This document shows, in pieces, positions 45,355-60,839 of a DNA stretch of 64,000 bases. The notes under the pieces are model-generated. The model was not told where the DNA came from. It made no database searches and saw only the letters and a list, made by a program, of their open reading frames with translations. A program made the position numbers and the translations under genes. Where the stretch lies: contig NZ_AP022616.1 of assembly GCF_010731115.1 (NCBI RefSeq), forward strand, positions 4,836,001-4,900,000, in the 5' to 3' direction. The DNA is from Mycolicibacterium phocaicum. GTDB taxonomy: Bacteria > Actinomycetota > Actinomycetes > Mycobacteriales > Mycobacteriaceae. The first letter of the stretch is position 1; each line of letters begins with the position of its first letter.

Positions 45355-46338
45355 GTGCCACCCGCTCTGCCTGCGCTCGACGAACTGCTCGAGCGCCTGT
45401 ACGTCGTCTCGCTGCCCATGCGGGTCCGGTTCCGCGGCATCGACGTTCGTGAAGTCACGCTGATCGAAGGACCGTGCGGCTGGGGTGAATTCGGCGCATT
45501 CGTCGAGTACGGCGCGGCCGAGGCAGCGCACTGGCTCGTCTCCGGCATCGAGGCGGCGTACTCGCCGTCGCCCGCGCCGGTGCGCGACAGCATCCCGATC
45601 AACGCCACGGTGCCCGCCGTCGACGCGGCACGGGTGCCCGAGGTGCTGGCCCGGTTCCCAGGCGCCCGCACCGCCAAGGTGAAGGTGGCCGAGCCGGGCC
45701 AGACGCTGGCCGACGACGTGGCCCGCGTCGAAGCCGTCCGTGCCCTGGTGCCGGTGGTGCGGGTGGACGCCAACGGCGGCTGGACCGTAGCGGAAGCGGC
45801 GGCCGCGGCGCGGGCCCTGACGGCCTCGGGTCCCCTCGAATACCTGGAGCAGCCGTGCGCGACGGTGCCGGAACTGGCCGAACTCCGGCGCCTGGTCGAC
45901 GTGCCGGTGGCGGCCGACGAGTCCATCCGCAAGGCCTCCGACCCGCTGCGTGTCGTCCGCGAGCGCGCGGCCGATGTCGCGGTGGTGAAGGTCGCGCCGC
46001 TGGGTGGGGTGGGGCGGTTGTTGGAGGTGGCCCGTCAGATCGACATCCCGGTCGTGGTGTCGAGCGCGCTGGACTCCGCGGTCGGGATGACGCGCGGGCT
46101 CCTGGCCGCCGGGTGTCTGCCGACGCTGCAGCACGCCTGCGGGCTGGGCACCGGCGGGTTGTTCGTGGAAGATGTTGCGGACGTGGCAACTTCGGTCGAC
46201 GGGTTCCTGCCCGTCGGCCCGGTGGCGCCGGACCCGGCGCGATTGGCCGGTCTGGCGGCGGCGCCCGCGCGTCGGGACTGGTGGATCGGGCGTGTCCGGG
46301 AGTGCTATCCGGTGCTGGAAGCTTTGTCCATCAAGTGA
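45355..46338 (+). CDS. menC: o-Succinylbenzoate synthase
   Basis: Enolase-superfamily enzyme that dehydrates SHCHC to o-succinylbenzoate. 327 residues from GTG 45355 (GAGGGGTG context). Catalytic elements are the KxK lysines in TAKVKVAEPG, metal ligands in RVDANGGW, EYLEQPC and ADESIRK, and the second catalytic Lys in VVKVAPLGGVG. ORF extension to 45226 is out of the real start and overlaps the ligase gene. It converges with the methyltransferase by 8 bp. Confidence 0.93.
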   Translation: MPPALPALDELLERLYVVSLPMRVRFRGIDVREVTLIEGPCGWGEFGAFVEYGAAEAAHWLVSGIEAAYSPSPAPVRDSIPINATVPAVDAARVPEVLARFPGARTAKVKVAEPGQTLADDVARVEAVRALVPVVRVDANGGWTVAEAAAAARALTASGPLEYLEQPCATVPELAELRRLVDVPVAADESIRKASDPLRVVRERAADVAVVKVAPLGGVGRLLEVARQIDIPVVVSSALDSAVGMTRGLLAAGCLPTLQHACGLGTGGLFVEDVADVATSVDGFLPVGPVAPDPARLAGLAAAPARRDWWIGRVRECYPVLEALSIK

Positions 46339-47140
46339 ATTCGACGAGCGTGACCGGCGCCCGGAAGCGGGCCAACGCGGACAATCGGTAGGACTGCCGG
46401 GTGGCCCAGGGCACGAGCTTGCCGCGGCCGGCCGGATAGCGCAGTTCGCGCACGGTGCGGACACCGGGGATGGATTGCAAACGCGGGTATTGATCTGCGG
46501 TGAACCAGAACGGCATCGGGGGCACGGTGTAGTGCTCGCTGAGCCGGAAGCCGCGGCGCTGCGAATACGCGCTCAGCAACCGCGGCACACTGTCAAAGAC
46601 CAACTGTCCGTTGGGAAACCGCGCGGCGCATGCGGCGATGAGGTCGAACACGACATCCGCCGTCAGATACTGGAACAGGCCTTCGGCGGTGATCACCACG
46701 CCATCGGAATCGTCGACGGCGTCCATCCAGGAGTGGTCCAGCGCGGACTGCGCGCAGTACCCGAGCCGATCAGGCGTCGGGAGTACCTGCTGCCGGAGCT
46801 CGATGATCGGCGCCAAATCCACTGATAACCAAGTCATTTCGCCGTTGTCCACGCGCCAGAAGCTGGTCTGCAGCCCCTCCGCCAGCGCCACGACGGTCGC
46901 GCGCGGATGGCCGGCCAGATAGTCGCGGGTGACCGCGTCGAACACCAGGGCCCGCAGTGCGGTGGCCTGATGCGTGCGGCCGAAATCCTGGTAGTCGTAA
47001 TCGAGGCGGTCCCGCAGCGCGATCGCCATCGGGTCGTCGATGATGCCGTCGGGGCGGGCGGCCTCGGTGGCGCGTTGGTGCAACGTGAGGAGCGCGGTTT
47101 CGGATACGCCGTCGAGATGGCGGGCGTCGATGACTGGCAT
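46331..47140 (-). CDS. Class I SAM-dependent methyltransferase (leucine carboxyl methyltransferase-like)
   Basis: 269 residues. The pattern of the LCM/TIGR00027-like group is visible: IDDPMAIALRDRLDYDY, RTHQATALRALVFDAVTRDYL, TVVALAEGLQTSFWRVDNG (SAM-binding in place of GxGxG) and GVVITAEGLFQYLT. Substrate unknown. It is the first gene after menC and is divergent from the PPE gene, so it marks the left edge of the segment not found between menC and bpoC in M. tuberculosis. Confidence 0.82.
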   Translation of the reverse strand: MPVIDARHLDGVSETALLTLHQRATEAARPDGIIDDPMAIALRDRLDYDYQDFGRTHQATALRALVFDAVTRDYLAGHPRATVVALAEGLQTSFWRVDNGEMTWLSVDLAPIIELRQQVLPTPDRLGYCAQSALDHSWMDAVDDSDGVVITAEGLFQYLTADVVFDLIAACAARFPNGQLVFDSVPRLLSAYSQRRGFRLSEHYTVPPMPFWFTADQYPRLQSIPGVRTVRELRYPAGRGKLVPWATRQSYRLSALARFRAPVTLVEFT

Positions 47141-47259
47141 GGCGCCACCGTACGTCCACCGATCGGGTGGCTGTCAAAACCGGTCGCGAAAATCACCCGC
47201 CGCGCGGTGCCGCGATAACCGGCTGTCGCATAGGCGATTTCGCCCGGGCCACCGGGCCG

Positions 47260-47287
47260 GGAACTTTCTCGATGCATCCACCGACTA
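47260..47287 (+). promoter_or_regulatory. ECF-type promoter before PPE gene, GGAAC-N17-CGACTA
   Basis: GGAAC at 47260-47264 and CGACTA at 47282-47287 with 17 nt between. The same pair with the same spacing occurs at 48853-48880, and TTTCTCGA after the -35 is nearly shared. A start site near 47294 would give an 80-nt leader to the PPE gene. GGAAC is a common ECF -35 in mycobacteria. SigM is the best candidate because it has been reported to activate NRPS genes in M. tuberculosis; inference. Confidence 0.6.
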
Positions 47288-47374
47288 GCTAGACGTACGG
47301 GTGCCGTGGGGGTATCCAGGGCGGTCGCGCCACGACGGTGCGCGGCCTGCTGTGCCGTGCGAGGAGACCGCGAC

Positions 47375-48844
47375 GTGACTGTGCCGATCTGGATGGCCAT
47401 GCCACCTGAGGTGCATTCGGCGTTGCTGACGGCCGGCCCGGGGCCCGGTTCACTGCTCGCTGCCGCCGCGCAATGGCAACAGCTGAGCCTGCAGTACGGC
47501 CAGGCGGCCGCCGAGCTGTCGACCGTCCTGGCCGACGTGCAGGGGAGCAGTTGGGAGGGGCTGAGCGCGGTCCAGTATGTCGCCGCGCACGTGCCCTACC
47601 TGGCCTGGCTGGAGGAGTCCGCGCTGACGACGGCCGCGACGGCGGCACAGCATGAAACGGTGGCCGCCGCCTACGGCACCGCCGTCGCGACCATGCCGAC
47701 GCTGGTGGAACTGGCCGCCAATCATGTGACGAACGCCGCACTGTTGGCGACAAACTTCTTCGGTATCAACACGATTCCCATCGCGGTCAACGAGGCCGAC
47801 TACGCGCGCATGTGGATACAGGCGGCCGACACCATGATCGTCTACCAAGCGGTCGCCGAGGTGGCCACGGCGGCGGTACCGCCCGCGCAGCCGGCGCCGT
47901 CGATCGTCGCGCCCGGTGGTGAAGCCCGGCAGTCGCTGTCGAACGCGCCCACCTCGCCGGGCCAACCACTGAGCGACCTCTGGCAGTTCCTCTCGCAACT
48001 GGGCACCACCGGCCAGGTCGACCAGCTGCTCGAGAACTTCACGCGCTTCTTCGAGCAATTGGGCTTCAATCCCGCCACGTCCGCGGTGCTGGCCCTGGTG
48101 GCGTTGACGCTCTACGACATGCTCTGGTACCCCTACTACGCCTCCTACCTACTGCCGCTGGCATCGTTCTTCGCGCCGGCACTCAGCGCGCTCGCGGCGC
48201 TGGCGCTGGTGAAATCGCCAGTGCTGCCGGCCGCGGACGCGGCGCCGGTGCCCGCCGAACCCGCTGTGGTCCAGCCTGCGGGAGCTGCGCCGCGCGCCCA
48301 GGGTGTCCCTCTCGTCCCCGGTGTTCAGGTCGGTATGACACCGGCCTCCGGGCTCTCCGCGCCGGCGCCGACCACTCCCGGGGCCGGCGGCGCCGCGCCC
48401 GCAGCCAACCTGGTCTACGCCGTACCCGGGCTGTCGCGACATGGAGCGGGACCAGGGCCGGAATCGGGCAGTGAATCGCCCGATATCAGCACCGACAGCA
48501 TCGATGCCGCAGCCTCCGCTCGTGCCGTCGCCGGCGTCCGTGACCGGGCCAAACGTGTGCGTCGAGCCCGGCGCGGAGCCCGGGGTTATCGCGATGAGCT
48601 TCCTGAGATGAAGGCCGATCTGACTGGCGCCGGCGACAATTCGCCGAGCGCACCCGTCGTCACGGCCGGCGCGCGCGGCGCGGAACCGGTCGGGTTCACC
48701 GGTGCGGTGACCACGGCGAGCACCGCACCGAACGGCATGGTGGAGCGGCTGCCGGCGGGTGCGAGCCCGTCGGCGCCACTGCTTCCGGCCACCTGGCTGT
48801 CCGGCGTGGAGCACGGGCGCAACCAGCAAGAGCACGAATTGTGA
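47375..48844 (+). CDS. PPE family protein (PPE1-like)
   Basis: 489 residues from GTG 47375 with GAGGAG upstream. The conserved N-terminal 180-residue PPE domain has MPPEVHSALLTAGPGPGSLL, the WxG turn in SSWEGLSAVQYVAAHVPYLAWL, and ALLATNFFGINTIPIAVNEADYARMW. The C-terminal half is Ala/Pro-rich and variable, with one hydrophobic segment near residues 235-285. PPE proteins are exported by ESX systems; no PE partner is next to it. In M. tuberculosis PPE1 (Rv0096) starts the isonitrile lipopeptide locus in the same order. An ORF from 47306 adds a non-PPE leader. Confidence 0.9.
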   Translation: MTVPIWMAMPPEVHSALLTAGPGPGSLLAAAAQWQQLSLQYGQAAAELSTVLADVQGSSWEGLSAVQYVAAHVPYLAWLEESALTTAATAAQHETVAAAYGTAVATMPTLVELAANHVTNAALLATNFFGINTIPIAVNEADYARMWIQAADTMIVYQAVAEVATAAVPPAQPAPSIVAPGGEARQSLSNAPTSPGQPLSDLWQFLSQLGTTGQVDQLLENFTRFFEQLGFNPATSAVLALVALTLYDMLWYPYYASYLLPLASFFAPALSALAALALVKSPVLPAADAAPVPAEPAVVQPAGAAPRAQGVPLVPGVQVGMTPASGLSAPAPTTPGAGGAAPAANLVYAVPGLSRHGAGPGPESGSESPDISTDSIDAAASARAVAGVRDRAKRVRRARRGARGYRDELPEMKADLTGAGDNSPSAPVVTAGARGAEPVGFTGAVTTASTAPNGMVERLPAGASPSAPLLPATWLSGVEHGRNQQEHEL

Positions 48845-48852
48845 AGGGGCGC

Positions 48853-48880
48853 GGAACTTTTCTCGAGGTCCCGACGACTA
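48853..48880 (+). promoter_or_regulatory. ECF-type promoter before the oxidase gene, GGAAC-N17-CGACTA
   Basis: GGAAC at 48853-48857 and CGACTA at 48875-48880, 17 nt apart, identical in both elements and spacing to the site at 47260-47287. A start near 48887 gives a leader of about 92 nt to the oxidase gene. It allows the biosynthetic genes to be transcribed apart from the PPE gene while responding to the same sigma factor. Inference from sequence match. Confidence 0.6.
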
Positions 48881-48978
48881 CATCAATTGAAGACAACAAC
48901 TGAACGACTTTCTGCGTTGTGGGGCAACGAATTTCGATGCACACCGGCGTGGTGCAGCAAACTTGGGGAGGCGCGTCG

Positions 48979-49848
48979 ATGACGCTCAATGTGCAGGGAC
49001 GAGGGCTCGGAGCGCAGGTCGTCGGAATCGATCCGAACAATCTGGGCAACATCTCGACCGACGAGCTCCGCGAAATCGTCTACGAGAACAAGCTTGTCGT
49101 CCTCAAGGGAGTCAAGCCGTCGCCCGCGCAGTTCATCGAGCTCGGCCGCATCCTCGGTGAGATCGTCACGTACTACGAGCCCGTGTACCACCACAACGAG
49201 CACCCGGAGATCTTCGTCTCATCCACTGAGGAAGGGCAGGGCGTGCCGCGCACGGGTGCGTTCTGGCACATCGACTACATGTTCATGCCCGAGCCGTTCG
49301 CGTTCTCCATGGTGATGCCGCTGACGGTCCCGGGCGCCGACCGCGGCACGTACTTCATCGACCTCAACAAGGTCTGGGAATCCCTGCCGCCGGCGCAGCA
49401 GGAGCCGGTGCGAGGCACCTTCAGCACGCATGATCCTCGGCGCCACATCAAGATTCGGCCCAGCGATGTGTACAAGCCGATCGGCGAGGTGTGGGACGAG
49501 ATCAACCGTGCCACGCCACCGATCAAGTGGCCCACGGTGATCCGGCACCCACACACCGGCCAGGAGATCCTCTATATCTGCTCCACCGGCACCAGCAAGA
49601 TCGAAGACGGCGACGGCGAGGTCCTGGACCCCGCGGTCCTGCATGAACTCCTCACTGCCACCGGCCAGCTCGACGCCGACTTCGCGTCACCGTTCATCCA
49701 TACGCAGCACTACGAAGTCGGTGACATCATCCTGTGGGACAACCGGGCGCTGATTCACCGGGCCAAACACGGAACCGCGACGGGCACACTGACGACGTAT
49801 CGGCTGACCATGCTCGACGGCCTCGCGACGCCGGGGTACGCGGCATGA
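48979..49848 (+). CDS. Non-haem Fe(II)/2-oxoglutarate oxidase, isonitrile-forming (ScoE/Rv0097-like)
   Basis: 289 residues from ATG 48979 (GGGGAGG upstream; ORF start at 48919 adds 20 non-conserved residues). TauD-fold with iron ligands His97 and Asp99 in FWHIDYM and distal His260 in ALIHRAKHG, and the 2-oxoglutarate Arg275 in TYRLTML. The text is highly similar to Rv0097. ScoE-type enzymes convert an N-carboxymethyl-3-aminoacyl intermediate to the isonitrile by oxidative decarboxylation. Stop overlaps fcoT by 4 bp. Isonitrile function is inferred from family and context. Confidence 0.88.
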   Translation: MTLNVQGRGLGAQVVGIDPNNLGNISTDELREIVYENKLVVLKGVKPSPAQFIELGRILGEIVTYYEPVYHHNEHPEIFVSSTEEGQGVPRTGAFWHIDYMFMPEPFAFSMVMPLTVPGADRGTYFIDLNKVWESLPPAQQEPVRGTFSTHDPRRHIKIRPSDVYKPIGEVWDEINRATPPIKWPTVIRHPHTGQEILYICSTGTSKIEDGDGEVLDPAVLHELLTATGQLDADFASPFIHTQHYEVGDIILWDNRALIHRAKHGTATGTLTTYRLTMLDGLATPGYAA

Positions 49849-50390
49849 GCGCCACCGAACTGACCGCACCCGTCACCGAATGCGTTGACACCGAGCAGAT
49901 TCCGGAAGAACTCCTGGCCCGCGTGCTGGAACCCTACTCCTACAAAGGCTGCCGCTATCTCACGGACGCGACATACCGGGCCAGCGGTGATTCGATGTTC
50001 GCGACGGGAAATTTCAGCATTCCCGAGTCGGTGTACATCCGCAGCACCGGGCATTTCAACGCCGTCGAACTGGTGCTGTGCTTCAACCAGCTCGCTTACT
50101 CGGCGTTCGCGCCGGCGGTCCGCCACGGCGAGATCGACGGGTTCCGGGGCTGGACGCTCGATGACTATTTCGAGAATCAGTTGGCCAGCATGCTGATCCG
50201 GTCCACCGCGTCGCGCTACAAACGGCAGATCGATGCGCGCAGGTTCTCCGCCCGACTGACATGCGAAGGCATCGAAGTCGTCGAGCGAAGCTGGCGGTAC
50301 CTGAAAGTGCCGTGCGCCATCGAGTTCCACGACGACGACGGCGGATCCGCGTCCGGCGAGTTCGAACTCGCGATCCTCAACATTCCGTGA
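49845..50390 (+). CDS. fcoT: FcoT/ScoD-type enzyme (Rv0098-like)
   Basis: 181 residues. Hot-dog-fold protein. PEELLARVLEPYSYKGCRYL, YIRSTGHFNAVELVLCFNQL and RSWRYLKVPCAIEF are almost word for word as I recall Rv0098. Rv0098 was first described as a fatty acyl-CoA thioesterase; in the isonitrile pathway the ScoD-type protein is assigned the addition of glycine to an alpha,beta-unsaturated acyl carrier thioester. ATGA overlap with the oxidase and GTGA overlap with fadD10 indicate one operon. Confidence 0.88.
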   Translation: MSATELTAPVTECVDTEQIPEELLARVLEPYSYKGCRYLTDATYRASGDSMFATGNFSIPESVYIRSTGHFNAVELVLCFNQLAYSAFAPAVRHGEIDGFRGWTLDDYFENQLASMLIRSTASRYKRQIDARRFSARLTCEGIEVVERSWRYLKVPCAIEFHDDDGGSASGEFELAILNIP

Positions 50391-51892
50391 GCACCGTATT
50401 GGGGCGGCTGCTCGCGCAGGCGCAGCAGCACCCGCAGGCAATCGCGTTGCGGCGCTGTGACGGAACCAGCGCCGTCACGTACGGCCGGCTCCCTGCGGTG
50501 GTGCATCGGCTGGCCGGCGAGTTGCACAAGCACGGGGTCGCTCGCGGTGGCCGGGTATTCGTGATGTCCGACAACGGTCCCGAGACCTATGTCGCGGTGC
50601 TGGCATGTGCGCACCTCGGTGCCATCGCGGTGCTGGTGGATCATGGTGTCCCGACCGCGACCGTCGCGCGCTTCGGCGAGATCACCAGCCCCAGTGCGGT
50701 TCTCCTGACGCCGGGCGCGGACCCGACGGCACTGCCGGGCGCTCTGAGCGCGATCCCGGCGATCGTCGTCGACGTCGACGACGACGCGGAGCACAGCGAC
50801 GACGCGCCCGTCGTCGCGCCGGCGGAACTGGGCGCCGACGATCCGCTGGCGATGATCTTCACGAGCGGCACCACCGGTGAGCCGAAAGCCGTACTGCTGG
50901 CCAATCGCACGTTCTTCGCCGTGGCCGACATCCTGGCGCGCGAGAACCTCACCTGGATCAGCTGGGTGGTGGGAGAAGCCACGTACTCGCCGCTGCCGGC
51001 CAGCCACATCGGCGGCCTGTGGTGGATCCTGAACTGCCTGATGCACGGCAGCGAATGTGTCACCGGCGGTGAGAATTCCACGTCGCTGGCGGAGATTCTC
51101 ACCGCGAACCAGATTGCCTCGACGTGTCTGGTGCCCACGCTGCTGACGCGACTGGTGTCGGAGGTCAAGGCGGGCGCCCCGCTGCCGCCGCTGCGGATGA
51201 TCGGCTACGGAGGCTCGCGCGCCATCGCGGCCGACGTGCAATTCGTCGAAGCGGCCGGCGTGCACACGGCTCAGGTCTTCGGCCTGAGCGAAACAGGTTG
51301 TACCGCATTGTGTCTGCCGACGTCAGACGGATCGATCAGCCGGATCGAGGCCGGCGCCGTGGGGCGGCCCTACCCCGGGGTCGAGGTCCGTCTGACCGGC
51401 GGAGACAGCGCTGACTCGGGCACGTTGTGGATCAAGTCACCGGCAAACATGTTGGGGTACTGGAATAATCCCGAGCACACCGGTGAAGTCCTGGTCGACG
51501 GCTGGGTGAACACCGGCGACATCTTCGAGCGCGGTGCCGACGGGTACTTCTACATCAAGGGCCGGTCCGCGGAGATGATCATCTCCGGCGGCGTCAATGT
51601 CGCACCCGACGAGGTGGACCGCATCGCCGAGAGCGTCCCTGGTGTCGGCGCGGCGGCCTGCTTCGAAATCCCCGATGCCGAGTTCGGCGCGTTGATCGGC
51701 CTGGCGGTGATCCCGTCCGGCGAGCTCGACGAAGGCCAGGCCCGCAAGCTCAAGCAGGCCATCGCGGCGCGCTATCGGGCGGAGTCGGAGTCGATGGCCA
51801 GGCCATCGACCATCACGCTGGTGACCGAGATACCGCGGACGCAGTCCGGCAAGGTCATTCGCGCCGCACTGGCAGCGGCGGTTCATGGCTGA
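50387..51892 (+). CDS. fadD10: Acyl-AMP ligase FadD10-like
   Basis: 501 residues from GTG 50387. Adenylation motifs: FTSGTTGEPKAVLLANRTF with the P-loop at residues 159-167, LPASHIGGLWWILN, YGGSRAIAADVQ, VFGLSETGCTAL, NTGDIFERGADGYFYIKGR and Lys489 in TQSGKVIRAAL. FadD10/ScoC loads a fatty acid as acyl-AMP on to the stand-alone carrier protein encoded next, with which it overlaps by 8 bp. Confidence 0.88.
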   Translation: MSTVLGRLLAQAQQHPQAIALRRCDGTSAVTYGRLPAVVHRLAGELHKHGVARGGRVFVMSDNGPETYVAVLACAHLGAIAVLVDHGVPTATVARFGEITSPSAVLLTPGADPTALPGALSAIPAIVVDVDDDAEHSDDAPVVAPAELGADDPLAMIFTSGTTGEPKAVLLANRTFFAVADILARENLTWISWVVGEATYSPLPASHIGGLWWILNCLMHGSECVTGGENSTSLAEILTANQIASTCLVPTLLTRLVSEVKAGAPLPPLRMIGYGGSRAIAADVQFVEAAGVHTAQVFGLSETGCTALCLPTSDGSISRIEAGAVGRPYPGVEVRLTGGDSADSGTLWIKSPANMLGYWNNPEHTGEVLVDGWVNTGDIFERGADGYFYIKGRSAEMIISGGVNVAPDEVDRIAESVPGVGAAACFEIPDAEFGALIGLAVIPSGELDEGQARKLKQAIAARYRAESESMARPSTITLVTEIPRTQSGKVIRAALAAAVHG

Positions 51893-52130
51893 CGGCCTCC
51901 GCGAACGCGTCCTGGCCGCCGTCGCCGACGTGCTCTACATCGACGAATCCGATCTGTTCGACGGCGACGCCACCGATCTGCGCGAACTCGGGTTGGACTC
52001 GGTGCGGTTCGTCCTGCTGATGAAACGCCTCGGCGTGGAACGGGAATCGGACCTGCTGAAACGTCTGGCACAGGAGCTGACGATCGCCGGCTGGGCCCGG
52101 GAGCTGAAGGGTGTCCGTGGCGGTGTCTGA
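51885..52130 (+). CDS. Stand-alone acyl carrier protein (Rv0100/ScoB-like)
   Basis: 81 residues. The phosphopantetheine attachment site is Ser39 in LRELGLDSVRFVLLM. Short four-helix carrier protein with the usual acidic helix II. It overlaps fadD10 by 8 bp and the NRPS by up to 20 bp, so stoichiometric co-translation is likely. It would carry the acyl chain through unsaturation, glycine addition and isonitrile formation before condensation by the NRPS. Confidence 0.88.
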   Translation: MADGLRERVLAAVADVLYIDESDLFDGDATDLRELGLDSVRFVLLMKRLGVERESDLLKRLAQELTIAGWARELKGVRGGV

Positions 52131-55100
52131 CGACAGCCGGATTCCGCTGAGCATCTCGCAGCAGAACATCTATCACGGGGTGCTGCAGGACCCTGATCCC
52201 GCGCTGTACCTGATCGGCAAGAGCTACCGGTTCCGCCCACTGGCGCCGGCGGCATTCCTGTCGGCGCTGGAAGCAATGGTGCTGGACAACCCGATTCAGC
52301 TGTGCGTGCTTGAGCCGCCGGCGACCGGTGACGGCCATCCGGAGCTGGTGGCCCGGCTGCGGTTCGAGGACATCGCCTGCGTGCAGCCCGGGTCAACTCG
52401 GACGTCGCCGGAGCTGTGGACCGACGGCATACTCGGTACCCCCCTGGTGCGCTATATCGTGCACACCGACGCCGACGGCCGGGTGGTGGGCATGGACGCG
52501 CAGAGCCACCACATCCTGCTCGACGGTGCGTCGACCGCGATCATCGAAGCCGACCTGGCCCGGCATCTGGTCGGGGCCGAGCAGAAGGCCGGCGCCGCTG
52601 CGGGTTTGGCGCTGGTCGCGGCGGCACACCGCAGTGAGCACGCGAAAGTGGCGGAATCGACCGAACGGCACGTCGCCGCGGTGCGTCGGGAACTGACCGA
52701 CGAAGCGCAGCGCGGCAATTCGATGACGGGCGCCACCGATGCGGCGCTCGGGACCGCGGGCCGCGGCGTGCTGCGGGAATCATGTCGAGTCGCCGGCCGG
52801 GCCTATGACGAGATCGTTGCGCTCGCCGAGACCCGGCAGGTTCCGCTGAACATTCTGGTCGCGACCGCGGCGACGGCGGTGCACGCGAGCCTGCACCAGA
52901 ACACCGAGGCTCTCCTGGTACACCCGGTGGACAACCGTTTCGGTGCGCCGGAGTTGAATGTTGCTACCTGCCTGGTGAATTCGGTTGCACACCCGGTTCG
53001 GTTCGCGCCCTTCGCCGCGGTCCGGGACGTGGTCACCCTGATCGACCGGGGCTACGTCAAAGCGCTGCGGCGCCGGTGGTTCCGTGAAGAGCGGTACCGC
53101 CGTATGCATCTGGCGATCACGCGCGGCGCGCCCGTCGAAGCACTGACGGTCAACTACATGCGCGGCCGGTCCGCGGCGGAGCTGAGCCCGTACCTGTCCG
53201 AACCCCCGGTGGTCACCGATATCGGTCCGGTGGAAGGGATGACGGTGGCCTGCGTCCACGATGAAGCTCGGCGCACCATCGACTTCGCCATCTGGACCCG
53301 GCACGATCAACCCGACGGTGCCGGCCCAGCCGGCGTCGTCGAGCGCATTGTCGTGGCACTGCGAGCGATGGACGCGCACTGGGACCTGCCGATCGCGCTG
53401 ACCGTCGGCGAGTGGTCCGGGCTCGCCGCCGACGGCCGGCTCGAATCCGGTACCGGGATACCGGTGCAACCACCGGCCGGTGTGGGCGCCTGGTTCCTCG
53501 ACGTCGATGTCGGCCAGTGCCGCGGGCCCGGCGTCGACCAGTGGATCGCCGAGATCATCCGCCGTGGTGTCCATCCCGGCGACGTACTGGTGTTCGTCGA
53601 CGACGATTCCCAGCGCGCGGTCGAGCTGCTCATCGCATGCCACCTGGCAGGCTGCGGTTACAGCGTGTGCGCGACACCCGGCGACGTGGTGGCACGCGTC
53701 GAGGCCATCGCCGGGCAGTGCGCCACCGGTGCGCACGCGGTCGAGCTTGCCGGCCCTCGTACCGAGTTGGACGGCGCGACAAGACAACTCGTCGACGAAC
53801 GTATCGGCCAGGTCGGCCGGGACCACCTGCTGGGCACCCGTCTCGCGTACGTGATGCCGACGTCCGGCTCGACGGGGAATCCCAAACTCGTTCCCGTGAC
53901 GCACGGTTCGCTGGCGATCTTCTGTGCCGCGGCGCGCGAGTCCTACGGCTGGGGGCCGGCGGACACCATCCTGCAGTGCGCCCCGCTGACGTCGGACATC
54001 AGCGTCGAGGAGATTTTCGGCGCCCTGTCGGGTGGCGCACGCGTGGTGCGGTCCGCGGCGATGCGCGCCGGTGACGTACCCGCGTTAACGCGCGATGTCG
54101 CGGCGCACATCGCAACCGTGCTCGACCTGCCCACCGCGGTCTGGCATCTCCTCTGTGAGGACGACGAGGCGTTGGCGGCACTGGGTGGCTCGGCGCTGCG
54201 CCAGGTGATCATCGGCGGGGAGGCCGTCCGTCCTTCCGCTGTCGACAAATGGCTGAATTCGGCTGCGGGCCAAGGTATCTCCCTGGTCTCGACGTACGGC
54301 CCGACCGAGACGACGGTGGTCGTCACGCACTTGCCGATCGGTGCCGATGAACCCGCGCAGACCAGGGCGCGGCTGGGGCACCCGCTGGTACCCGGCTCGG
54401 TGTTCGTCGCGTTCGGCGAGATCGTTGTCGTCGGGGAGCTGGTGTCGGCCGGTTACCTCGGGCTGGACAGCGCGAGCTTCGGCATCGTGCAGGCGCCGGA
54501 CGGCTCCCGGCAGCGGGTGTTCGCCACGGGCGACCGTGTGACGCGAGACGGGGCGGGTCATCCCGTGCTGGCCGGGCGCCGGGACGCCGTGGTCAAGATC
54601 GCCGGCAAGCGGTTCGATACCGCCGCGCTCCTGCGCCGGTTGGCGGCGGCCCCCGAGATATCCGACGTGGCAGTCGAACTGGCGGGCAATGGCCTGGGTA
54701 TCTGGTTCCAAACCCCACAGACCCGCACCGGGAACGACGATCCGGCTGCCCGCGCCAGGATTCGGCGCCTGGCGAGAGACCAGGGTGCACCGGCGTTCTC
54801 CGTCTTCGGCGTCCCGGGCATCCCACGACAGCCCAACGGAAAAGTCGACCGCGCGAAACTGGCTGCGGACATGGAGGCTCCGTGCGACGACGCCGATCAG
54901 GATCCGCGGGCCGTCGCGCTTGCCGAACTGTGGAGCCGGCTGCTGGAACGTCCCATCGGGCCCAGCGCCTCGCTGTTGGACGAGGGCATCGGTTCACTGG
55001 ACCTGATTCGGATCCTGCCGGAGACGCGACGGTTCCTCGAGTGGCAGCTGTCCATTCTCGATCTGATCGGTGCGGACTCCGCCGCCGGCATCGTCGACCG

Positions 55101-56232
55101 CCGGCCCGACGTCGACAGCTGGATGGACGAGGAGACTGCGGCCCACATCGCCGCCGACCTGGCGGCGGTGGGGCAGCCGGGACCGGTCTTTGCACGGGCC
55201 ACCCGCGGGCGCAGTGCGCAGACCGTCGTGATCCTGGGTGCCTCGGGCATTCTGGGCACCGGCTTCGCGCAGGCGATCCTCGACCGCAAGCATGCCGGCC
55301 TCGACTGTCCCGACGTCGTGTTCGCCGCCAGATCACCACTGCCCGAACATGACCCGTGGTCCGGCCTGCACTCGGCCGACGGCGTGGACATCGTGCGGAT
55401 ACCTGCCGACCCCACCGCCGCGGAGCTGGGCGACCTTCTCGACGGCGCCCGCACCGTCGTGAACTGCATCGGTAACACGAATGTGTTGGTGCCCTACCGC
55501 CGGCTCCGGGCGGCCAACGTTTCGGCGCTGGCGTCGGTCGCGGATGCGTGTGCGCGGCGCGGGGCCGGGCTGGTGCAGCTGTCGACCTTCGTGGTGAACG
55601 CCGACGTGGCGGCGCCCCGCGTCACCGACCCCCGCCACGCGCCGTACCCCTACGCCGCGTCGAAGTCTTTGGCGGAGATCGTCGTGTCCCGCGCCGCGGG
55701 TGGCCTGGACTTCTCGGTGGTGCGGCTGCCCCGGGTGCTGGGCGACGCCCACCGGCTCGCGCAGTCGTCGGACATCCTGGTCGCGATGGTCGATGCGTGC
55801 ACCGCGCTGGGCGTATGTCCCGTGGTGCCGGTGACCGAAGAGGTCACCACCGGCGTGGCCGCCGCCCACAGCATTCTCGGGCTGCTTCCGCAGCTGTCAC
55901 CGGCGGTCGAGCTGGGCCGCGGCATGGCGGTACTACGCGGCGAGAAAGTCTCCTACACAGCGTTTCTCGGCGGCCTCGGATTCGAGGCCATCGCCCTCGC
56001 GGAGTGGAAGGACCGGCTGGACCGCAGCGGGTGGGCCGCCCGGAATCCGCAGCGCTGGGCGGTACTCGATGCATGGGTCGGGTTGGGTGCCAGATTGCGG
56101 GGCCGCACGTATGCCGACTATCTGGCCGAATATCCCACTGTCGACGTCGATTTCGCGGCTGTCGCGGAATACACCAGTGCGCCTGAGCCACTTCGCGGTG
56201 TCTTCGGCGCTGATCAGATTGTGAGGAAATGA
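52111..56232 (+). CDS. nrp: Single-module NRPS: condensation-adenylation-carrier-reductase
   Basis: 1373 residues. Condensation domain (about 10-430) with an intact HHILLDG at 133-139. Adenylation domain (about 560-915) with TSGSTGNPK at 584-592, YGPTET at 729-734, ATGDRVTRD, GRRDAVVKIAGKRFD and Lys911 in NGKVDRAK; its first 130 residues are divergent. Carrier site Ser962 in DEGIGSLDLI. Reductase domain (about 1035-1373) with LGASGILG from 1042, Tyr1181 and Lys1185 in YAASK. It would condense the isonitrile acyl chain to one amino acid (perhaps on both amines) and release it reductively as aldehyde or alcohol. M. tuberculosis Nrp has two modules (about 2500 residues). GTGs at 52117 and 52123 are alternative starts. 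Confidence 0.9.
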   Translation: MSVAVSDDSRIPLSISQQNIYHGVLQDPDPALYLIGKSYRFRPLAPAAFLSALEAMVLDNPIQLCVLEPPATGDGHPELVARLRFEDIACVQPGSTRTSPELWTDGILGTPLVRYIVHTDADGRVVGMDAQSHHILLDGASTAIIEADLARHLVGAEQKAGAAAGLALVAAAHRSEHAKVAESTERHVAAVRRELTDEAQRGNSMTGATDAALGTAGRGVLRESCRVAGRAYDEIVALAETRQVPLNILVATAATAVHASLHQNTEALLVHPVDNRFGAPELNVATCLVNSVAHPVRFAPFAAVRDVVTLIDRGYVKALRRRWFREERYRRMHLAITRGAPVEALTVNYMRGRSAAELSPYLSEPPVVTDIGPVEGMTVACVHDEARRTIDFAIWTRHDQPDGAGPAGVVERIVVALRAMDAHWDLPIALTVGEWSGLAADGRLESGTGIPVQPPAGVGAWFLDVDVGQCRGPGVDQWIAEIIRRGVHPGDVLVFVDDDSQRAVELLIACHLAGCGYSVCATPGDVVARVEAIAGQCATGAHAVELAGPRTELDGATRQLVDERIGQVGRDHLLGTRLAYVMPTSGSTGNPKLVPVTHGSLAIFCAAARESYGWGPADTILQCAPLTSDISVEEIFGALSGGARVVRSAAMRAGDVPALTRDVAAHIATVLDLPTAVWHLLCEDDEALAALGGSALRQVIIGGEAVRPSAVDKWLNSAAGQGISLVSTYGPTETTVVVTHLPIGADEPAQTRARLGHPLVPGSVFVAFGEIVVVGELVSAGYLGLDSASFGIVQAPDGSRQRVFATGDRVTRDGAGHPVLAGRRDAVVKIAGKRFDTAALLRRLAAAPEISDVAVELAGNGLGIWFQTPQTRTGNDDPAARARIRRLARDQGAPAFSVFGVPGIPRQPNGKVDRAKLAADMEAPCDDADQDPRAVALAELWSRLLERPIGPSASLLDEGIGSLDLIRILPETRRFLEWQLSILDLIGADSAAGIVDRRPDVDSWMDEETAAHIAADLAAVGQPGPVFARATRGRSAQTVVILGASGILGTGFAQAILDRKHAGLDCPDVVFAARSPLPEHDPWSGLHSADGVDIVRIPADPTAAELGDLLDGARTVVNCIGNTNVLVPYRRLRAANVSALASVADACARRGAGLVQLSTFVVNADVAAPRVTDPRHAPYPYAASKSLAEIVVSRAAGGLDFSVVRLPRVLGDAHRLAQSSDILVAMVDACTALGVCPVVPVTEEVTTGVAAAHSILGLLPQLSPAVELGRGMAVLRGEKVSYTAFLGGLGFEAIALAEWKDRLDRSGWAARNPQRWAVLDAWVGLGARLRGRTYADYLAEYPTVDVDFAAVAEYTSAPEPLRGVFGADQIVRK

Positions 56233-56561
56233 CATTGACGGATGTGACTGAACCCCGGCACGAGGCGCCGAGCGCCGGCGCCAGCCATCTCGACATCACC
56301 GGAATGTCGTGCGTCATGTGTGCCCGCCGCGTGCAGAAGACACTCAACAAGATCGACGGTGTGCACGCGTCGGTCAGTTTCGCCACCAAGACCGCCTCCA
56401 TCGAGACCGACGGTGACGTCAGCCCGGCCGAACTGTGCGACGCCGTCGTGGCGGCGGGCTACGGCGCCGCACCGCGCGCCGAGGCGCCCGTGGTGGACAG
56501 CGCGGCGCGCGGACCACTGCAGCGGTTCGTCGGCGGCCTGCTCGGGCGCGTCTCGCCCTGA
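56229..56561 (+). CDS. Heavy-metal-associated (HMA) domain protein
   Basis: 110 residues. After a 20-residue leader comes the HMA fold with GMSCVMC (Cys28 and Cys31) and the ferredoxin-like pattern KIDGVHASVSFATKTASIE and AAGYGAAP. It looks like the N-terminal metal-binding domain of a copper P-type ATPase cut off before the first membrane helix, with a short tail GPLQRFVGGLLGRV. Its ATG overlaps the NRPS stop (ATGA), so it is made with the NRPS. A Cu/Zn chaperone or sensor role for the isonitrile product is inferred. Confidence 0.85.
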   Translation: MTLTDVTEPRHEAPSAGASHLDITGMSCVMCARRVQKTLNKIDGVHASVSFATKTASIETDGDVSPAELCDAVVAAGYGAAPRAEAPVVDSAARGPLQRFVGGLLGRVSP

Positions 56562-56582
56562 CCGGCTTGTCCTAATTTGTGG

Positions 56583-56608
56583 GCCCCTTGGCGTAGACGC
56601 CATGGGGC
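56583..56608 (+). terminator. Hairpin after the isonitrile operon
   Basis: GCCCCTTGGCGT at 56583-56594 pairs with 56597-56608 with one T-T mismatch and a 2-nt loop. It lies 21 nt after the HMA gene and 21 nt before the GlxA-like gene. No T-run follows. It would separate the operon from the regulator gene, although read-through is possible. Confidence 0.5.
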
Positions 56609-56629
56609 TGGACGTCGCACGATAGAGGC

Positions 56630-57598
56630 GTGACGCGATCTGTGGTGCTGCTCGGCTTTCGCGGGGTGCAGGCCCTCGACGTCGTCGGCCCGTTCGAGGT
56701 GTTCACGGGCGCGACGCTGCAACTGGCCGCGATGGGACGGAGCGACGAGGGCTACGCGCCGGTCTTGGCCGCGGCCGACGGTGGTCCCGTCACCACCTTG
56801 ACCGGGCTCGAATTCGTCACCAAGCCGCCGCCCGACCCGAACGAACCCGTCGACACCATCGTGCTGCCCGGCGGCATGGGTGTCGATGAGGCTCGGGCCG
56901 ACCCCGCCGTCATCGACTGGATTCGCACCGCGGCACCGCACGCGCGCCGCATCGTCAGCGTCTGCAACGGCGCGTTCCTGGCCGCGGAGGCCGGCCTGCT
57001 CGACGGCTGCCCGGCCACCACGCACTGGGCCTCGGCCGACAAGCTTGCCAGTGAATTCCCTTGCATCGCAGTCGATGCCGACCCGATCTTCATCCGCAGC
57101 TCGGAGCAGGTGTGGACGGCGGCGGGCGTCACCGCGGGCATCGATCTGGCCCTGGCGCTCGTCGAAGACGACTACGGCACCGACGTCGCCCAGAACGTCG
57201 CCCGCTGGCTCGTGCTCTACCTGCGCCGGCCCGGCGGGCAGACGCAGTTCGCGCCGCCGGTCTGGATGCCGCGCGCCAAGCGCGAACCTATTCGCGACGT
57301 GCAGGAGCTCATCGAGGCCGAACCCGGCGGGGCACACAGTGTTCCGGAGCTGGCGCGCGCCGCCGCGATGAGCCCGCGGCACTTCACCCGGACGTTCACC
57401 GCCGAGGTGGGGGAGCCGCCGGCGGCCTACGTCGAGCGGGTCCGCACCGATGCGGCTCGCCGGCAGCTCACCGAGACCGACGACACCGTCACCGCCATCG
57501 CGGCGCGGTGCGGCTTCGGTAGCGCCGAGACGCTGCGTCGCAGTTTTGTTCGGCGCGTTGGGGTTTCGCCAGATCAGTACCGCAAGACGTTCGCTTAG
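56630..57598 (+). CDS. GlxA-type regulator: DJ-1/PfpI domain plus AraC HTH
   Basis: 322 residues, GTG start. N-terminal DJ-1/PfpI-like sensor domain (about 1-190) with GFRGVQALDVVGPFEVF and the nucleophile-elbow segment IVSVCNGAFLAAEAGLLDG, Cys in VCNGA. C-terminal AraC DNA-binding domain (about 220-320) with MSPRHFTRTFTAEVGEPPAAYVERVR and IAARCGFGSAETLRRSFVRRVGVSPDQYR. It is placed 9 nt before a stand-alone DJ-1 gene with the same fold. The ligand is unknown. Confidence 0.9.
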   Translation: MTRSVVLLGFRGVQALDVVGPFEVFTGATLQLAAMGRSDEGYAPVLAAADGGPVTTLTGLEFVTKPPPDPNEPVDTIVLPGGMGVDEARADPAVIDWIRTAAPHARRIVSVCNGAFLAAEAGLLDGCPATTHWASADKLASEFPCIAVDADPIFIRSSEQVWTAAGVTAGIDLALALVEDDYGTDVAQNVARWLVLYLRRPGGQTQFAPPVWMPRAKREPIRDVQELIEAEPGGAHSVPELARAAAMSPRHFTRTFTAEVGEPPAAYVERVRTDAARRQLTETDDTVTAIAARCGFGSAETLRRSFVRRVGVSPDQYRKTFA

Positions 57599-57607
57599 GG
57601 AGAGATC

Positions 57608-58321
57608 ATGCAAGTTGCCATCGTCCTGTACCCGGGGTTCACGGCCCTCGACTTCATCGGGCCGTATGAGTCGTTGCGCTGGCTGCCGGACACCGAGGTC
57701 CGGTTCGTCTGGCACGAGCCGGGTCCGATCGTCGCCGATTCCGGCGTGCTGTTGGTGGGCGCCACCCACTCGTTCGACGAGACGCCGACGCCCGACATCA
57801 TCCTGATCCCGGGCGGCTTCAGTACCCTGGAGCACGCCCGCGACGAGAAGCTGCTGGACTGGCTGCGGCGGGCCCACGAGACCACCACGTGGACGGCGTC
57901 GGTGTGCTCGGGTTCGGTGATCCTGGGCGCGTCCGGACTGCTGAAAGGCAAGCGCGCGACGTCGCATTGGGCGGCCGTGCAGCTGCTGCGCACGTTCGGC
58001 GTCGAACCCGTCACCGATGAGCGCATCGTGCAGTCCGCCGACCGCGTCGTCACCTGCGCGGGTGTCTCGGCCGGCATCGACCTCGGCCTGTGGCTGGCCG
58101 CGCAGATCGGCGGCGAGGACAAGGCCAAGGCCATTCAGCTGTCCATGGAATACGACCCGCAGCCCCCGTTCGACTCCGGGCACATGTCGAAGGCCTCGGC
58201 CGCCACCAAGGCCAGTGCAACGGCGCTGATGTCCCGTGAGCTCCTCAAGCCGACGGCACTCAAGCACACCACGGCACTGCTGTGGGAACAGGCCGTCAAG
58301 AAGGTCCGTTCCCGCCGTTGA
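57608..58321 (+). CDS. DJ-1/PfpI family protein resembling isonitrile hydratase
   Basis: 237 residues. N-terminal YPGFTALDFIGPYESLRWLP, then IILIPGGFSTLEHARDEKLL, SVCSGSVILGASGLLKGKRATSHWAAV and VSAGIDLGLWLAAQIGG, ending with SMEYDPQPPFDSG. These segments closely resemble isocyanide (isonitrile) hydratase of Pseudomonas, which adds water to R-NC to give an N-substituted formamide. The expected catalytic Cys is Cys100, the conserved Asp is Asp15, and the residue after Cys is Ser in place of Thr. It lies in the isonitrile island, 1.0 kb after the HMA gene. Function inferred; other DJ-1 roles are possible. Confidence 0.72.
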   Translation: MQVAIVLYPGFTALDFIGPYESLRWLPDTEVRFVWHEPGPIVADSGVLLVGATHSFDETPTPDIILIPGGFSTLEHARDEKLLDWLRRAHETTTWTASVCSGSVILGASGLLKGKRATSHWAAVQLLRTFGVEPVTDERIVQSADRVVTCAGVSAGIDLGLWLAAQIGGEDKAKAIQLSMEYDPQPPFDSGHMSKASAATKASATALMSRELLKPTALKHTTALLWEQAVKKVRSRR

Positions 58322-58400: not shown

Positions 58401-59189
58401 GTGAATCTGGCATTCGACGACCGTGGCGGATCCGGCGAGCCGGTGCTGTTCATCGCGGGACGGGGCGGCGCGGGCCGCACCTGGCACCTGCATCAGGTAC
58501 CGGCGTTCCAGCGGGCCGGCTTCCGCTGCATCACGTTCGACAACCGCGGCATCGGCGCCACCGAGAACGCCATCGGCTTCTCCACCGACCAGGCGGTCGC
58601 GGACACCGCATCGTTGATCAACAAGGTCGTCGGCGGCCCGGTGCGCGTCGTCGGCGTGTCGATGGGGTCGTTCATCGCGCAGGAACTCATGGTTGCCCGG
58701 CCCGAGCTGGTGTCCTCGGCGGTGCTGATGGCCACGCGCGGCCGGGAGGACCGGGCCCGCACTTTCTTCCGCGAGGCCGAGCGGGCGCTGCTGGCCGCCG
58801 GTATCGAGCTGCCGCCTGAGGTGGACGCGAAAAACCGGCTGCTGGAGAACTTCTCACCCAAGACCCTGAATGACGACCGTGCCGTCCAGGACTGGATCGA
58901 GATGTTCACCATGTGGCCCACGAAGCCCACCCCGGGCCTGCGGGCGCAGCTTGCCGTTGCGCCGGAGACCAACCGGCTGCCGGCCTACCGCCAGATCGCG
59001 GTGCCGGTGCAGGTGATCGGCTTCGCCGACGACGTCGTGCTGCCGCCGCACCTGTCCAAGGAGGTGGCCGACGCGATCCCGCTGGGCCGCTACCTGGAAA
59101 TCCCCGACGCCGGGCACCTCGGCTTCATCGAGCGTCCCGATGCGGTGAACGCCGCGATGTTGGAATTCTTCGCCGCCAACCCGGTGTGA
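58401..59189 (+). CDS. bpoC: Alpha/beta hydrolase BpoC
   Basis: 262 residues from GTG 58401. The catalytic Ser87 is in VVGVSMGSF, Asp in VIGFADDVV, and His in DAGHLGF. FIAGRGGAGRTWHLHQVPAF and TFDNRGIGATE are close to Rv0554. It is annotated as a non-haem peroxidase-like hydrolase in M. tuberculosis, but it is more likely a hydrolase acting near menaquinone synthesis; being next to menD it could be the MenH-type SHCHC synthase, although this is only inference. Confidence 0.9.
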   Translation: MNLAFDDRGGSGEPVLFIAGRGGAGRTWHLHQVPAFQRAGFRCITFDNRGIGATENAIGFSTDQAVADTASLINKVVGGPVRVVGVSMGSFIAQELMVARPELVSSAVLMATRGREDRARTFFREAERALLAAGIELPPEVDAKNRLLENFSPKTLNDDRAVQDWIEMFTMWPTKPTPGLRAQLAVAPETNRLPAYRQIAVPVQVIGFADDVVLPPHLSKEVADAIPLGRYLEIPDAGHLGFIERPDAVNAAMLEFFAANPV

Positions 59190-59201: not shown

Positions 59202-60839
59202 ATGAACCCGTCGACGATTCAGGCGCGGGTCGTCGTCGACGAACTGATTCGCGGCGGCGTCCGCGATGTGGTGCTGTGCCCCGGTTCGCGTAACGCTCCG
59301 CTGGCGTTCGCGCTGGCCGACGCCGACCGGGCCGGCCGCTTGCGGCTGCATGTCCGTATCGACGAGCGCACCGCCGGTTACCTGGCGGTCGGCCTCGCGG
59401 TGTCCGCCGGCTCACCGGTGTGCATCGCGATGACGTCGGGCACCGCGGTGGCCAATCTCGGTCCGGCGGTGATCGAGGCCAACTACGCCCGCGTGCCGCT
59501 GATCGTGCTGAGTGCCAACCGGCCGTACGAGCTGCTGGGCACCGGTGCCAACCAGACCATGGAGCAGCTCGGCTATTTCGGCAACCAGGTGCGGGCCACC
59601 ATCAGCCTGGGCCTGGCCGAGCCGACGGCCGACGTCGCCGCCTCCAATGCCCAGTGGCGGTCGGCCACGTGCCGGGTCCTGGTGGCCGCCAAGGGTTCTC
59701 GCACCGCCAATGCCGGGCCCGTGCAGTTCGACATCCCGCTGCGGGAGCCGCTGGTCCCGGACACCGCCGAAGATGGCCTCTACGCGCCGGAAGGCCGCCC
59801 TGGCGGCAAGCCGTGGACCTATACGCCGCCCGTCACGTTCGACCAGCCCCTCGAGATCGACCTGACGGCCGACACCGTCGTCATCGCCGGCCACGGCGCG
59901 GGCCGCCACGAGAACCTCGCGCACCTGCCGACCGTCGCCGAACCGACCGCGCCGCCGGCCGACAACCCGCTGCACCCGCTGGCACTGTCGCTGGTCAGGC
60001 CGCAGCAGGTGATCATGCTGGGTCGGCCGACGTTGCACCGGCCGGTCTCCACCTTGCTGGCCGACCCGCACACGCCCGTCTACGCGCTGACCACCGGCCC
60101 GCGCTGGCCCGACGTGTCGGGCAATTCGCAGGCCACCGGCACCCGCGCCATCACGTCAGGGACGCCGGCTCCCTCCTGGCTCGAGAAGTGTGCCGAAGCC
60201 AACACCCGTGCCGAGCACGCCGTGCGTGCCCAGCTCGCAGCCTATGAGCTGACCACCGGCCTGCACGTGGCGGCCGCCGTCGCCGACGGCCTGCAGCCCG
60301 GCGACCAGCTGGTGCTCGGCGCCTCCAACCCGGTGCGTGACGCCGCGCTCGTCGGGCTCAACTCGCACGGCATCTCGGTGCGGTCCAACCGTGGCGTCGC
60401 CGGTATCGACGGCACGGTGTCGACGGCCATCGGCGCCGCGCTCGCCCACACCTCGGGCCGGACCGTCGCGCTCATCGGTGACCTGACCTTCGTCCACGAC
60501 AGCTCGGGGCTGCTGATCGGCCCCACCGAGCCGACACCGAAGGCGCTGACCATCGTGGTCTCCAACGACAACGGCGGCGGCATCTTCGAGCTGCTGGAGC
60601 AGGGTGATCCCCGGTTCTCCGACGTGTCGTCGCGCATCTTCGGCACCCCGCACGACGTCGACGTCGCCGCCCTGTGCCGGGCGTACCACGTCGAGTGCCG
60701 GCAGGTGGAGGCCGACGGACTGGCCGCCGCGCTGCGCGAACCCTTCGAGGGGATGCGAGTGCTGGAGGTCAAGGCCGACAGGTCCACGCTACGGTCGTTG
60801 CACGCTTCGATACGGGCGGCGATCAAGGCCGCGCCGTGA
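59202..60839 (+). CDS. menD: SEPHCHC synthase
   Basis: ThDP-dependent first committed enzyme of menaquinone synthesis: joins 2-oxoglutarate and isochorismate. 545 residues. ThDP fold motifs: [20 protein letters not shown] N-terminal text ([12 protein letters not shown]), [29 protein letters not shown], and the GD-N ThDP/Mg motif [11 protein letters not shown] to [13 protein letters not shown]. It starts 12 nt after bpoC and overlaps the next gene by GTGA. Confidence 0.95.

Follow-up and report, generated by a model that had tools for sequence, protein, structure and literature searches.

Within a 64,000-nucleotide stretch of the Mycolicibacterium phocaicum chromosome (the window; G000:C1:4836001-4900000, in a genome, G000, of 5.85 Mb on one contig), the interval 46331-56561 is confirmed by its sequence features as a ppe1-nrp-type operon for an isonitrile lipopeptide (chalkophore), complete and with one synthetase module, lodged in the menaquinone (men) locus between menC and bpoC. 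It was compared with a sample of genus genomes (n=198; labelled G###) and with fetched loci (labelled L###), including 62 from other records whose ScoE proteins are 74-99% identical to that of the window. The nearest named relatives by ScoE are Mycobacterium sp. ST-F2 (99%), Mycolicibacterium sp. lyk4 (96%) and M. llatzerense (94%), from which the host is probably a fast grower. The window genome holds a single ScoE gene, the other match being distant (31 bits, 25% identity).

All genes of the cluster lie on the forward strand except the first, a divergently oriented methyltransferase of the LCM/TIGR00027 kind (46331..47140, reverse strand; Pfam LCM 33 bits, TIGR00027 35.8 against a cut-off of 93.6), whose last 8 bp are shared with menC. 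Directly upstream of the biosynthetic genes is a gene for a PPE1-like PPE protein with a PPW C-terminus (47378..48844; Pfam PPE 198.4 bits, PPE-PPW 27.9, cut-off 27), followed by a ScoE-type Fe(II)/2-oxoglutarate isonitrile-forming oxidase/decarboxylase (48979..49848, with an alternative upstream GTG start possible at 48919). The latter exceeds the cut-off of the NCBIfam ScoE equivalog (483.7 versus 400) and aligns end to end with the PDB entries 8kif (557 bits) and 9p9n (552 bits), including the HID and HRAKHG motifs. Placed by motif, it retains HID (starting at residue 97), HRAKHG around the distal His, the Lys in HIKIRP and the Arg in TYRLTM; roles of the ScoE facial triad, Arg310 and Lys193 are described in passages of PMC7949033. 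Downstream lie an FcoT/ScoD-type enzyme, predicted to add glycine to an enoyl thioester (49842..50390; Pfam FcoT 197 bits, Rv0098 structure 2pfc 251 bits), a FadD10-type acyl ligase (50387..51892; NCBIfam FadD10 equivalog 844, cut-off 726; PDB 4ir7 749 bits), a stand-alone acyl carrier protein (ACP; 51885..52130; Pfam PP-binding 31.5 bits), a non-ribosomal peptide synthetase (NRPS; 52111..56232, 1373 residues) and a stand-alone, CopZ-like HMA protein with a CVMC motif (56229..56561; Pfam HMA 45.9 bits), whose gene overlaps the NRPS stop in an ATGA. With the starts chosen here, the overlaps are 7 bp (ScoE/FcoT), 4 bp (FcoT/FadD10), 8 bp (FadD10/ACP), 20 bp (ACP/NRPS) and 4 bp (NRPS/HMA).

The original prediction had placed a PPE gene, an Fe/2-oxoglutarate oxidase, FcoT-like and FadD10-like genes, a carrier protein and an NRPS at these positions, with overlaps of 4 to 20 bp, and had read them as an Rv0096-Rv0101-like cluster for isonitrile lipopeptides inside the menaquinone locus; genes, overlaps and location are borne out, the families by Pfam and NCBIfam matches. 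The grouping of the oxidase and FcoT with the ScoE and ScoD families, which it had set as a check, holds for the oxidase, which passes the ScoE model, and less firmly for FcoT, which scores below the cut-off of the NCBIfam ScoD glycyltransferase equivalog (135.4 versus 250), its only NCBIfam match. The feature list was also incomplete: it did not include the HMA gene, the frequent partnership of the divergent methyltransferase with such clusters, or the two promoter-like elements described below.

The NRPS is read as one condensation-adenylation-thiolation-reductase (C-A-T-R) module from Pfam matches to AMP-binding, PP-binding and NAD_binding_4 and from the retained motifs HHILLDG, EGIGSLD, GASGILG and YAASK; Pfam returned no condensation match in the protein, and the C domain is read from HHILLDG together with a weak stretch. 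In 58 of the 59 loci with an NRPS match the frame spans 1357-1455 residues, which therefore corresponds to one module. In M. montefiorense (L046) the NRPS gene is broken, with a first frame of 968 residues. Read at the customary code positions of adenylation domains, the pocket is DIEDIGTVVK; among 59 NRPSs including that of the window, 47 have DIEDVG[ST]VVK, seven are the same as the window and five are one-place variants, with DIED[IV]G[ST]VVK in 55 of the 59. Its two acidic residues would fit a basic amino acid, probably Lys. The best NCBIfam match of the NRPS is the myxochelin synthetase MxcG (201.6 bits, far under the cut-off of 2300), an enzyme alike in logic only, which places two acyl chains on lysine and releases the product reductively.

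Because the order and strand of ScoE-FcoT-FadD10-ACP-NRPS are kept in 59 of the 62 loci (the three exceptions being the short contigs L027 and L035, and L028 without an NRPS match), the gene set is not a chance assembly. A methyltransferase match is present in 53 of these loci, mostly immediately upstream of PPE or ScoE. Clusters were found in M. septicum, M. peregrinum, M. setense, M. senegalense, M. llatzerense and Mycobacteroides chelonae, all of which we take to be fast growers (growth classes of named mycobacteria are assumed in this way throughout our comparisons), and a printed claim that fast growers have not conserved the operon is therefore contradicted.

CopZ (NF047957) is the best NCBIfam match of the HMA gene product, with a score below the equivalog cut-off (53.8 versus 85), and by inference from its sequence the protein may work like CopZ; it shares with CopZ chaperones an HMA domain with CxxC and differs from them by extra tails and by its setting in an NRPS operon. 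An HMA frame directly follows the NRPS in 30 of 59 loci, with the domain starting -61 to +88 nucleotides from the NRPS stop and CxxC present in all 30, which comprise Mycolicibacterium, Mycolicibacter and several further records. The 29 loci in which none was seen after the NRPS (one of them, L009, on a contig that ends ~240 nucleotides past the NRPS) include named presumed slow growers, the Mycobacteroides branch, Segniliparus and M. komossense. In L014, L052 and G143 (L113) a small HMA gene lies at the opposite end, beside the methyltransferase. A midpoint-rooted tree of HMA domains (n=71, with some genomes entered twice and the window HMA left out) separates the small HMAs from those of ATPases, and in the window genome the remaining HMA matches fall only in two long frames (46% and 49% alike), the first being the P-type ATPase adjoining sigC. 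In the available passages of literature on isonitrile clusters, nothing was found joining them to a metallochaperone gene or to ESX-3, which is not a claim that such a link is absent from print.

Two elements resembling promoters of the extracytoplasmic function (ECF), SigC type were found by whole-genome pattern search upstream of PPE (47260..47287, forward strand) and of ScoE (48853..48880, forward strand), both of the form GGAACTTT-N14-CGACTA. The element was recognised from 9-mers shared in the regions before PPE, GGGAACTTT occurring in 38 of 56 and leading to the pattern GGGAACTTT-N13..15-CGACTA; a general SigC consensus was rejected, having given no signal, with matches in 3 of 56 upstream regions (two mis-cut: L009, L034) versus 6.9% of shuffles. 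The strict pattern GGAACTTT-N12..16-CGACTA is found three times in the genome, each time on the forward strand, at window 47260, at window 48853 and at G000:3786455, with 0 in controls. The product of the gene behind the third match (L129 6456) looks secreted, judged by eye. A relaxed form, which was derived from the counted loci and so describes them rather than testing them independently, precedes PPE in 48 of 54 sequences (missing in L014, L027, L035, L037, L040 and L045) and ScoE in 29 of 63, and in 1.26 Mb it occurs 89 times forward versus 6 times reverse, 77 of the forward matches being PPE or ScoE placements. Both elements are also present in L003-L006 and L053.

Across the 198 genus genomes, the strict motif is found in 80 (116 matches in total; 14 in control columns), ScoE in 46 and SigC, at a threshold of E <= 1e-45, in 125. 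The motif occurs in 76 of the 125 SigC genomes versus 4 of the 73 without SigC (Fisher 4e-16), and ScoE in 46 of 125 versus 0 of 73 (Fisher 2e-11), both figures ignoring kinship. In other words, SigC accompanies ScoE in 46 of 46 genomes, versus 79 of the 152 without ScoE. Furthermore, a strict match lies within 12 kb of ScoE in 27 of the 46 ScoE genomes, and SigC within 15 kb of it in 23.

Copper genes surround the clusters of relatives. The M. gordonae locus (L007) runs SigC, CtpB-like ATPase, methyltransferase, PPE, cluster, CtaG and CtpB-like, and near the clusters of the M. fortuitum group come HMA, SigC and CtpB-like genes, in some loci with PepSY_TM between the first two; the 62 loci together hold SigC matches in 26, CtaG in 12, PepSY_TM in 11 and CtpB in 46, the last count mixing in HMA matches. 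In the window genome sigC (SigC equivalog 249, cut-off 219), a P-type ATPase (copper model 503, cut-off 397), CtaG, DUF1775 and CopC-CopD genes are found together near 1.77 Mb, and because CtaG, the ATPase and SigC are sited there, the chalkophore operon stands apart from the copper genes of its own genome. Elsewhere, in L166, L167 and L170, which are of the Mycobacteroides kind, the element precedes a DyP peroxidase gene (tested in L166 only) and near-identical lipoprotein genes, of which the L166 copy (5217-5681) is a PCu(A)C copper chaperone.

The closest described system is ppe1-nrp (Rv0096-Rv0101) of M. tuberculosis and M. marinum, whose PPE-to-NRPS order and enzyme families match the window by description and for which SigC control and a copper role have been published (passages of PMC9600254 and PMC7924339). 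In those accounts, nrp, fadD10 and ppe1 are required in low copper and a synthetic diisonitrile rescues (PMC9600254), and M. tuberculosis SigC transcribes ppe1-nrp and ctpB (PMC7924339). The window differs in having one NRPS module, where M. tuberculosis has an additional one (PMC9600254), in adding the overlapping HMA gene and a second promoter-like element before ScoE, and in carrying the operon in the men locus, away from sigC, the ATPase and ctaG. The Streptomyces Sco/Sfa clusters are alike in ScoE/ScoD-type chemistry and a one-module NRPS (PMC9600254, PMC7949033), whereas PPE is described as mycobacterial (PMC9600254), the window FcoT falls below the ScoD cut-off, and an HMA gene is unmentioned in the published passages on those clusters. 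Judged on sequence, the window operon is thus of a known kind, with new features relative to the type case: the in-operon HMA gene, two SigC-type elements and separation from the copper locus.

We consider it very probable that the product of the island is a diisonitrile lipopeptide chalkophore, made under SigC control when copper is short; product class, copper binding and copper-starvation role would carry over from the M. tuberculosis and M. marinum papers and from the known pathway, and PPE transport, HMA hand-over and the choice of Lys are only inferred. In the proposed mechanism, the ECF sigma factor SigC would turn the operon on when copper is scarce, FadD10 would charge the carrier protein with a fatty acid, FcoT/ScoD would add glycine to the enoyl thioester and ScoE would convert the glycine nitrogen to the isonitrile. 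The one-module NRPS would then attach two chains to a diamino acid, likely Lys, and its reductase domain would free the product. The PPE protein may help move the chalkophore, free or copper-bound, through the outer membrane, and the HMA protein may receive Cu(I) in the cytosol and pass it to HMA-bearing P-type ATPases, one of them beside sigC and ctaG near 1.77 Mb. The HMA protein would in that case be a candidate intracellular receiver of chalkophore copper. The locus would give an environmental mycobacterium with tuberculosis-like copper chalkophore genes at an unusual chromosomal place, and relatives outside the tuberculosis group are available for tests of copper chalkophore biology.

Several observations weigh against this interpretation. 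The FcoT-type enzyme scores below the ScoD cut-off, and because an HMA gene is not seen in 29 of 59 loci, the pathway can run without it. The third strict match in the genome precedes a gene without a Pfam match, strict matches are lacking within 12 kb of ScoE in 19 of the 46 ScoE genomes, and the element was not found, even relaxed, in 12 kb of the sigC-ATPase region of the window genome, although SigC acts on ctpB in M. tuberculosis. The relaxed pattern is descriptive, and the genome counts take no account of relatedness. As for regulation, passages of PMC9600254 describe Rip1/PdtaS/PdtaR control in M. tuberculosis, and control there is called sigma-factor independent in a passage of PMC10449499.

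The extent of the island is delimited by a close relative, G149, which has no ScoE match. In a blastn comparison with its locus (L095), homology ends at window position 46316 and restarts at 56568, with 751 unrelated bp between in G149, and because the flank homology breaks there the island is the stretch 46317-56567, missing from G149 and without the GlxA and DJ-1 genes. Cluster remnants were not seen in the G149 gap by tblastn up to E 10 (below 0.01 only the menC and GlxA ends matched). A HicB-family gene (L095 5268-5609) occupies the site within the 751 bp. To the left is menC (45370..46338, forward strand; NCBIfam o-succinylbenzoate synthase 476, cut-off 288), outside the island. To the right are, all on the forward strand, genes for a GlxA-like DJ-1/AraC regulator (56630..57598; Pfam DJ-1_PfpI and HTH_18) and a DJ-1/PfpI protein (57608..58321), followed by bpoC (58401..59189), which matches alpha/beta hydrolase models, all below cut-off, and is named after the original prediction and for its position before menD (59202..60839; TIGR00173 347.9, cut-off 244.2). 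The distance from the end of menC at 46338 to the start of bpoC at ~58401 is about 12.06 kb, in agreement with the ~12 kb first proposed; of the interval 46331..58321 then taken as the island, the part up to ~56567 stands, and the GlxA and DJ-1 genes up to 58321 are older residents outside it.

These two genes nevertheless raise the question of an isonitrile hydratase serving the cluster, in which the DJ-1 protein would convert isonitrile to formamide and so free copper or end a signal, with GlxA as sensor. Its closest solved relatives are indeed the isonitrile hydratase InhA (PDB 6ni5, 165.8 bits), and its D15 and C100 align with the catalytic Asp and Cys of InhA; moreover, GlxA- and DJ-1-like genes also adjoin ScoE-containing sets in G018, G172 and G143. 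However, the DJ-1 family is found in 187 of the 198 genomes versus ScoE in only 46, in the window's own clade and the outgroups both genes are present without the island (in G149 and the outgroups, respectively), and the DJ-1 proteins near the second ScoE are only 34-38% like that of the window, apart from one 69% copy (G018). We regard such a service as unlikely, and a hydratase as a member of the island is rejected on the 187 of 198 count and on the presence of GlxA and DJ-1 beside bpoC without the cluster. The second isonitrile-type set (a ScoE ~50% alike, an FcoT-like protein and an acyl ligase) was seen in G157, G018, G172 and G143 (L096 18158-19901, L098 4845-10066, L111 865-4508, L114 8470-13568), accompanied in the last three genomes by a nearby DJ-1 gene and another of ~460 codons (the G018 copy of the latter has no Pfam match).

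A product serving zinc, as in the kupyaphore view, with an HMA protein binding Zn(II), is a still poorer prospect in our estimate. Another group's conclusion in favour of zinc for the M. tuberculosis product is reported in PMC9600254, and a zinc role is cited in PMC9147137, in the passages concerned; both speak against a copper chalkophore, and Zn/Cd-type HMA models match the HMA protein too. The best matches of that protein are nevertheless copper proteins, copper genes neighbour the relatives' clusters and sigC, and the published SigC link, in passages of PMC7924339, is to copper. That the island is a decayed or silent, functionless copy, as its patchy distribution (46 of 198) and absence from G149 might suggest, is very improbable indeed, given open frames, intact NRPS motifs and both promoter-like elements in L003-L006 and L053 as well.

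A wider proposal is that the island, still read as a copper chalkophore operon, is a module of SigC-governed copper import combining the chalkophore, its own cytosolic metallochaperone and an ESX-3-type system delivering PPE as a transporter; we put this forward tentatively, judging it possible and on balance doubtful. In passages of PMC9600254, PPE1 as a transporter is speculation only. The ESX-3 link is a lead from relatives, which make an ESX-3-type system a candidate exporter, and no result on the window itself. All seven loci of the Mycobacteroides branch have a PE match after the NRPS; three of them also have EsxG- and EsxH-like matches, a fourth has just one of these two, and the contigs of the other three end within 470 nucleotides of the NRPS. 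In Segniliparus EccA and EccB matches follow the cluster, the EccA matches of L024 being broken (42-43%). In G018, EccA, EccB, EccC, PE, EsxG and EsxH lie between the cluster and menC (L099 9693-17900). Among 13 chosen genomes compared for EccB, it lies 14.7-14.9 kb from ScoE in G018, G156, G172 and G184, all of one Mycolicibacterium branch, the latter three copies 74-84% like that of G018, and a second copy, 61-64% like G018's, is found elsewhere in G018, G172 and G184 and not in G156. The EccB matches of the window genome are 61, 36 and 35% alike, none near the island; a 63% match to the first 198 residues of the island PPE lies ~4.4 kb from the 61% copy, though the best full-length paralogue of that PPE (46%) is found elsewhere.

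Of 30 fetched motif loci, nine face a chalkophore-cluster PPE, ten a PPE3-like or eccA3 gene and eleven fall in neither group; the ten are a hint that copper may control ESX-3. In the window genome's own ESX-3 region the whole-genome search gave no strict match, and the relaxed search (L179) stops short of the region upstream of eccA. The element was seen before PPE3-like genes or eccA3 in L161, L162, L163, L168 and ten of L131-L160, in genomes with and without ScoE, and the EccB of L163 fits EccB3 best (711 versus 321 bits for EccB5).

The menaquinone locus is a variable site. Pairing the best 149 menC and 150 menD matches of the genus sample gives, among the matches listed, at least 125 linked pairs with gaps of 0.8-35 kb, at least 42 of the 125 below 1.2 kb, which fits bpoC alone between. 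Among the matches listed for the 46 ScoE genomes, three have ScoE in the menC-menD interval of a single contig and one more has it beside menD, and in ten others menC or menD is more than 0.6 Mb off on the same contig, these distances covering 14 of the 46. Six of the 62 loci have bpoC and menD nearby, four of them menC too. The cluster is between menC and bpoC in the window, L003-L006 and G157, and beside bpoC in L053, where the contig piece ends before menC; in M. pinniadriaticum (G018/L025) it is inside a 35 kb menC-menD interval, and in sp. CH28 (G156/L016) beside bpoC-menD, with menC on a different contig. In a tree of 62 cluster sequences (L027, L028, L035 and L046 left out), the G018 and G156 clusters group with M. 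sphagni (L037) and G172 and not with the window clade, and a single origin of all men-locus clusters, unsupported by this tree, is rejected. The location, proposed as specific to this lineage, is shared by its clade, but also by G018 and G156/L016 on another branch; that the cluster would be at one place in all mycobacteria is likewise not what was found.

GlxA adjoins menC without an island in several genomes. Among the five outgroups of the flank-gene tree, all without the island, the menC-GlxA distance is ~60-90 bp in G159, G034 and G096 and ~1.3 kb in G067, with no GlxA match there in G154, and it is ~70 bp in G160, outside that tree. The flank-gene tree places G149 inside the island-bearing clade with weak support (0.73; next nodes 0.15, 0.50), and a GlxA+DJ-1 tree places it beside lyk4 (0.83; next nodes 0.97, 0.93). 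G149 was accordingly judged unlikely to be the pre-insertion state, the placement within that clade being weak, and from this position the most likely course is arrival of the island before the clade split, followed by its loss in G149.

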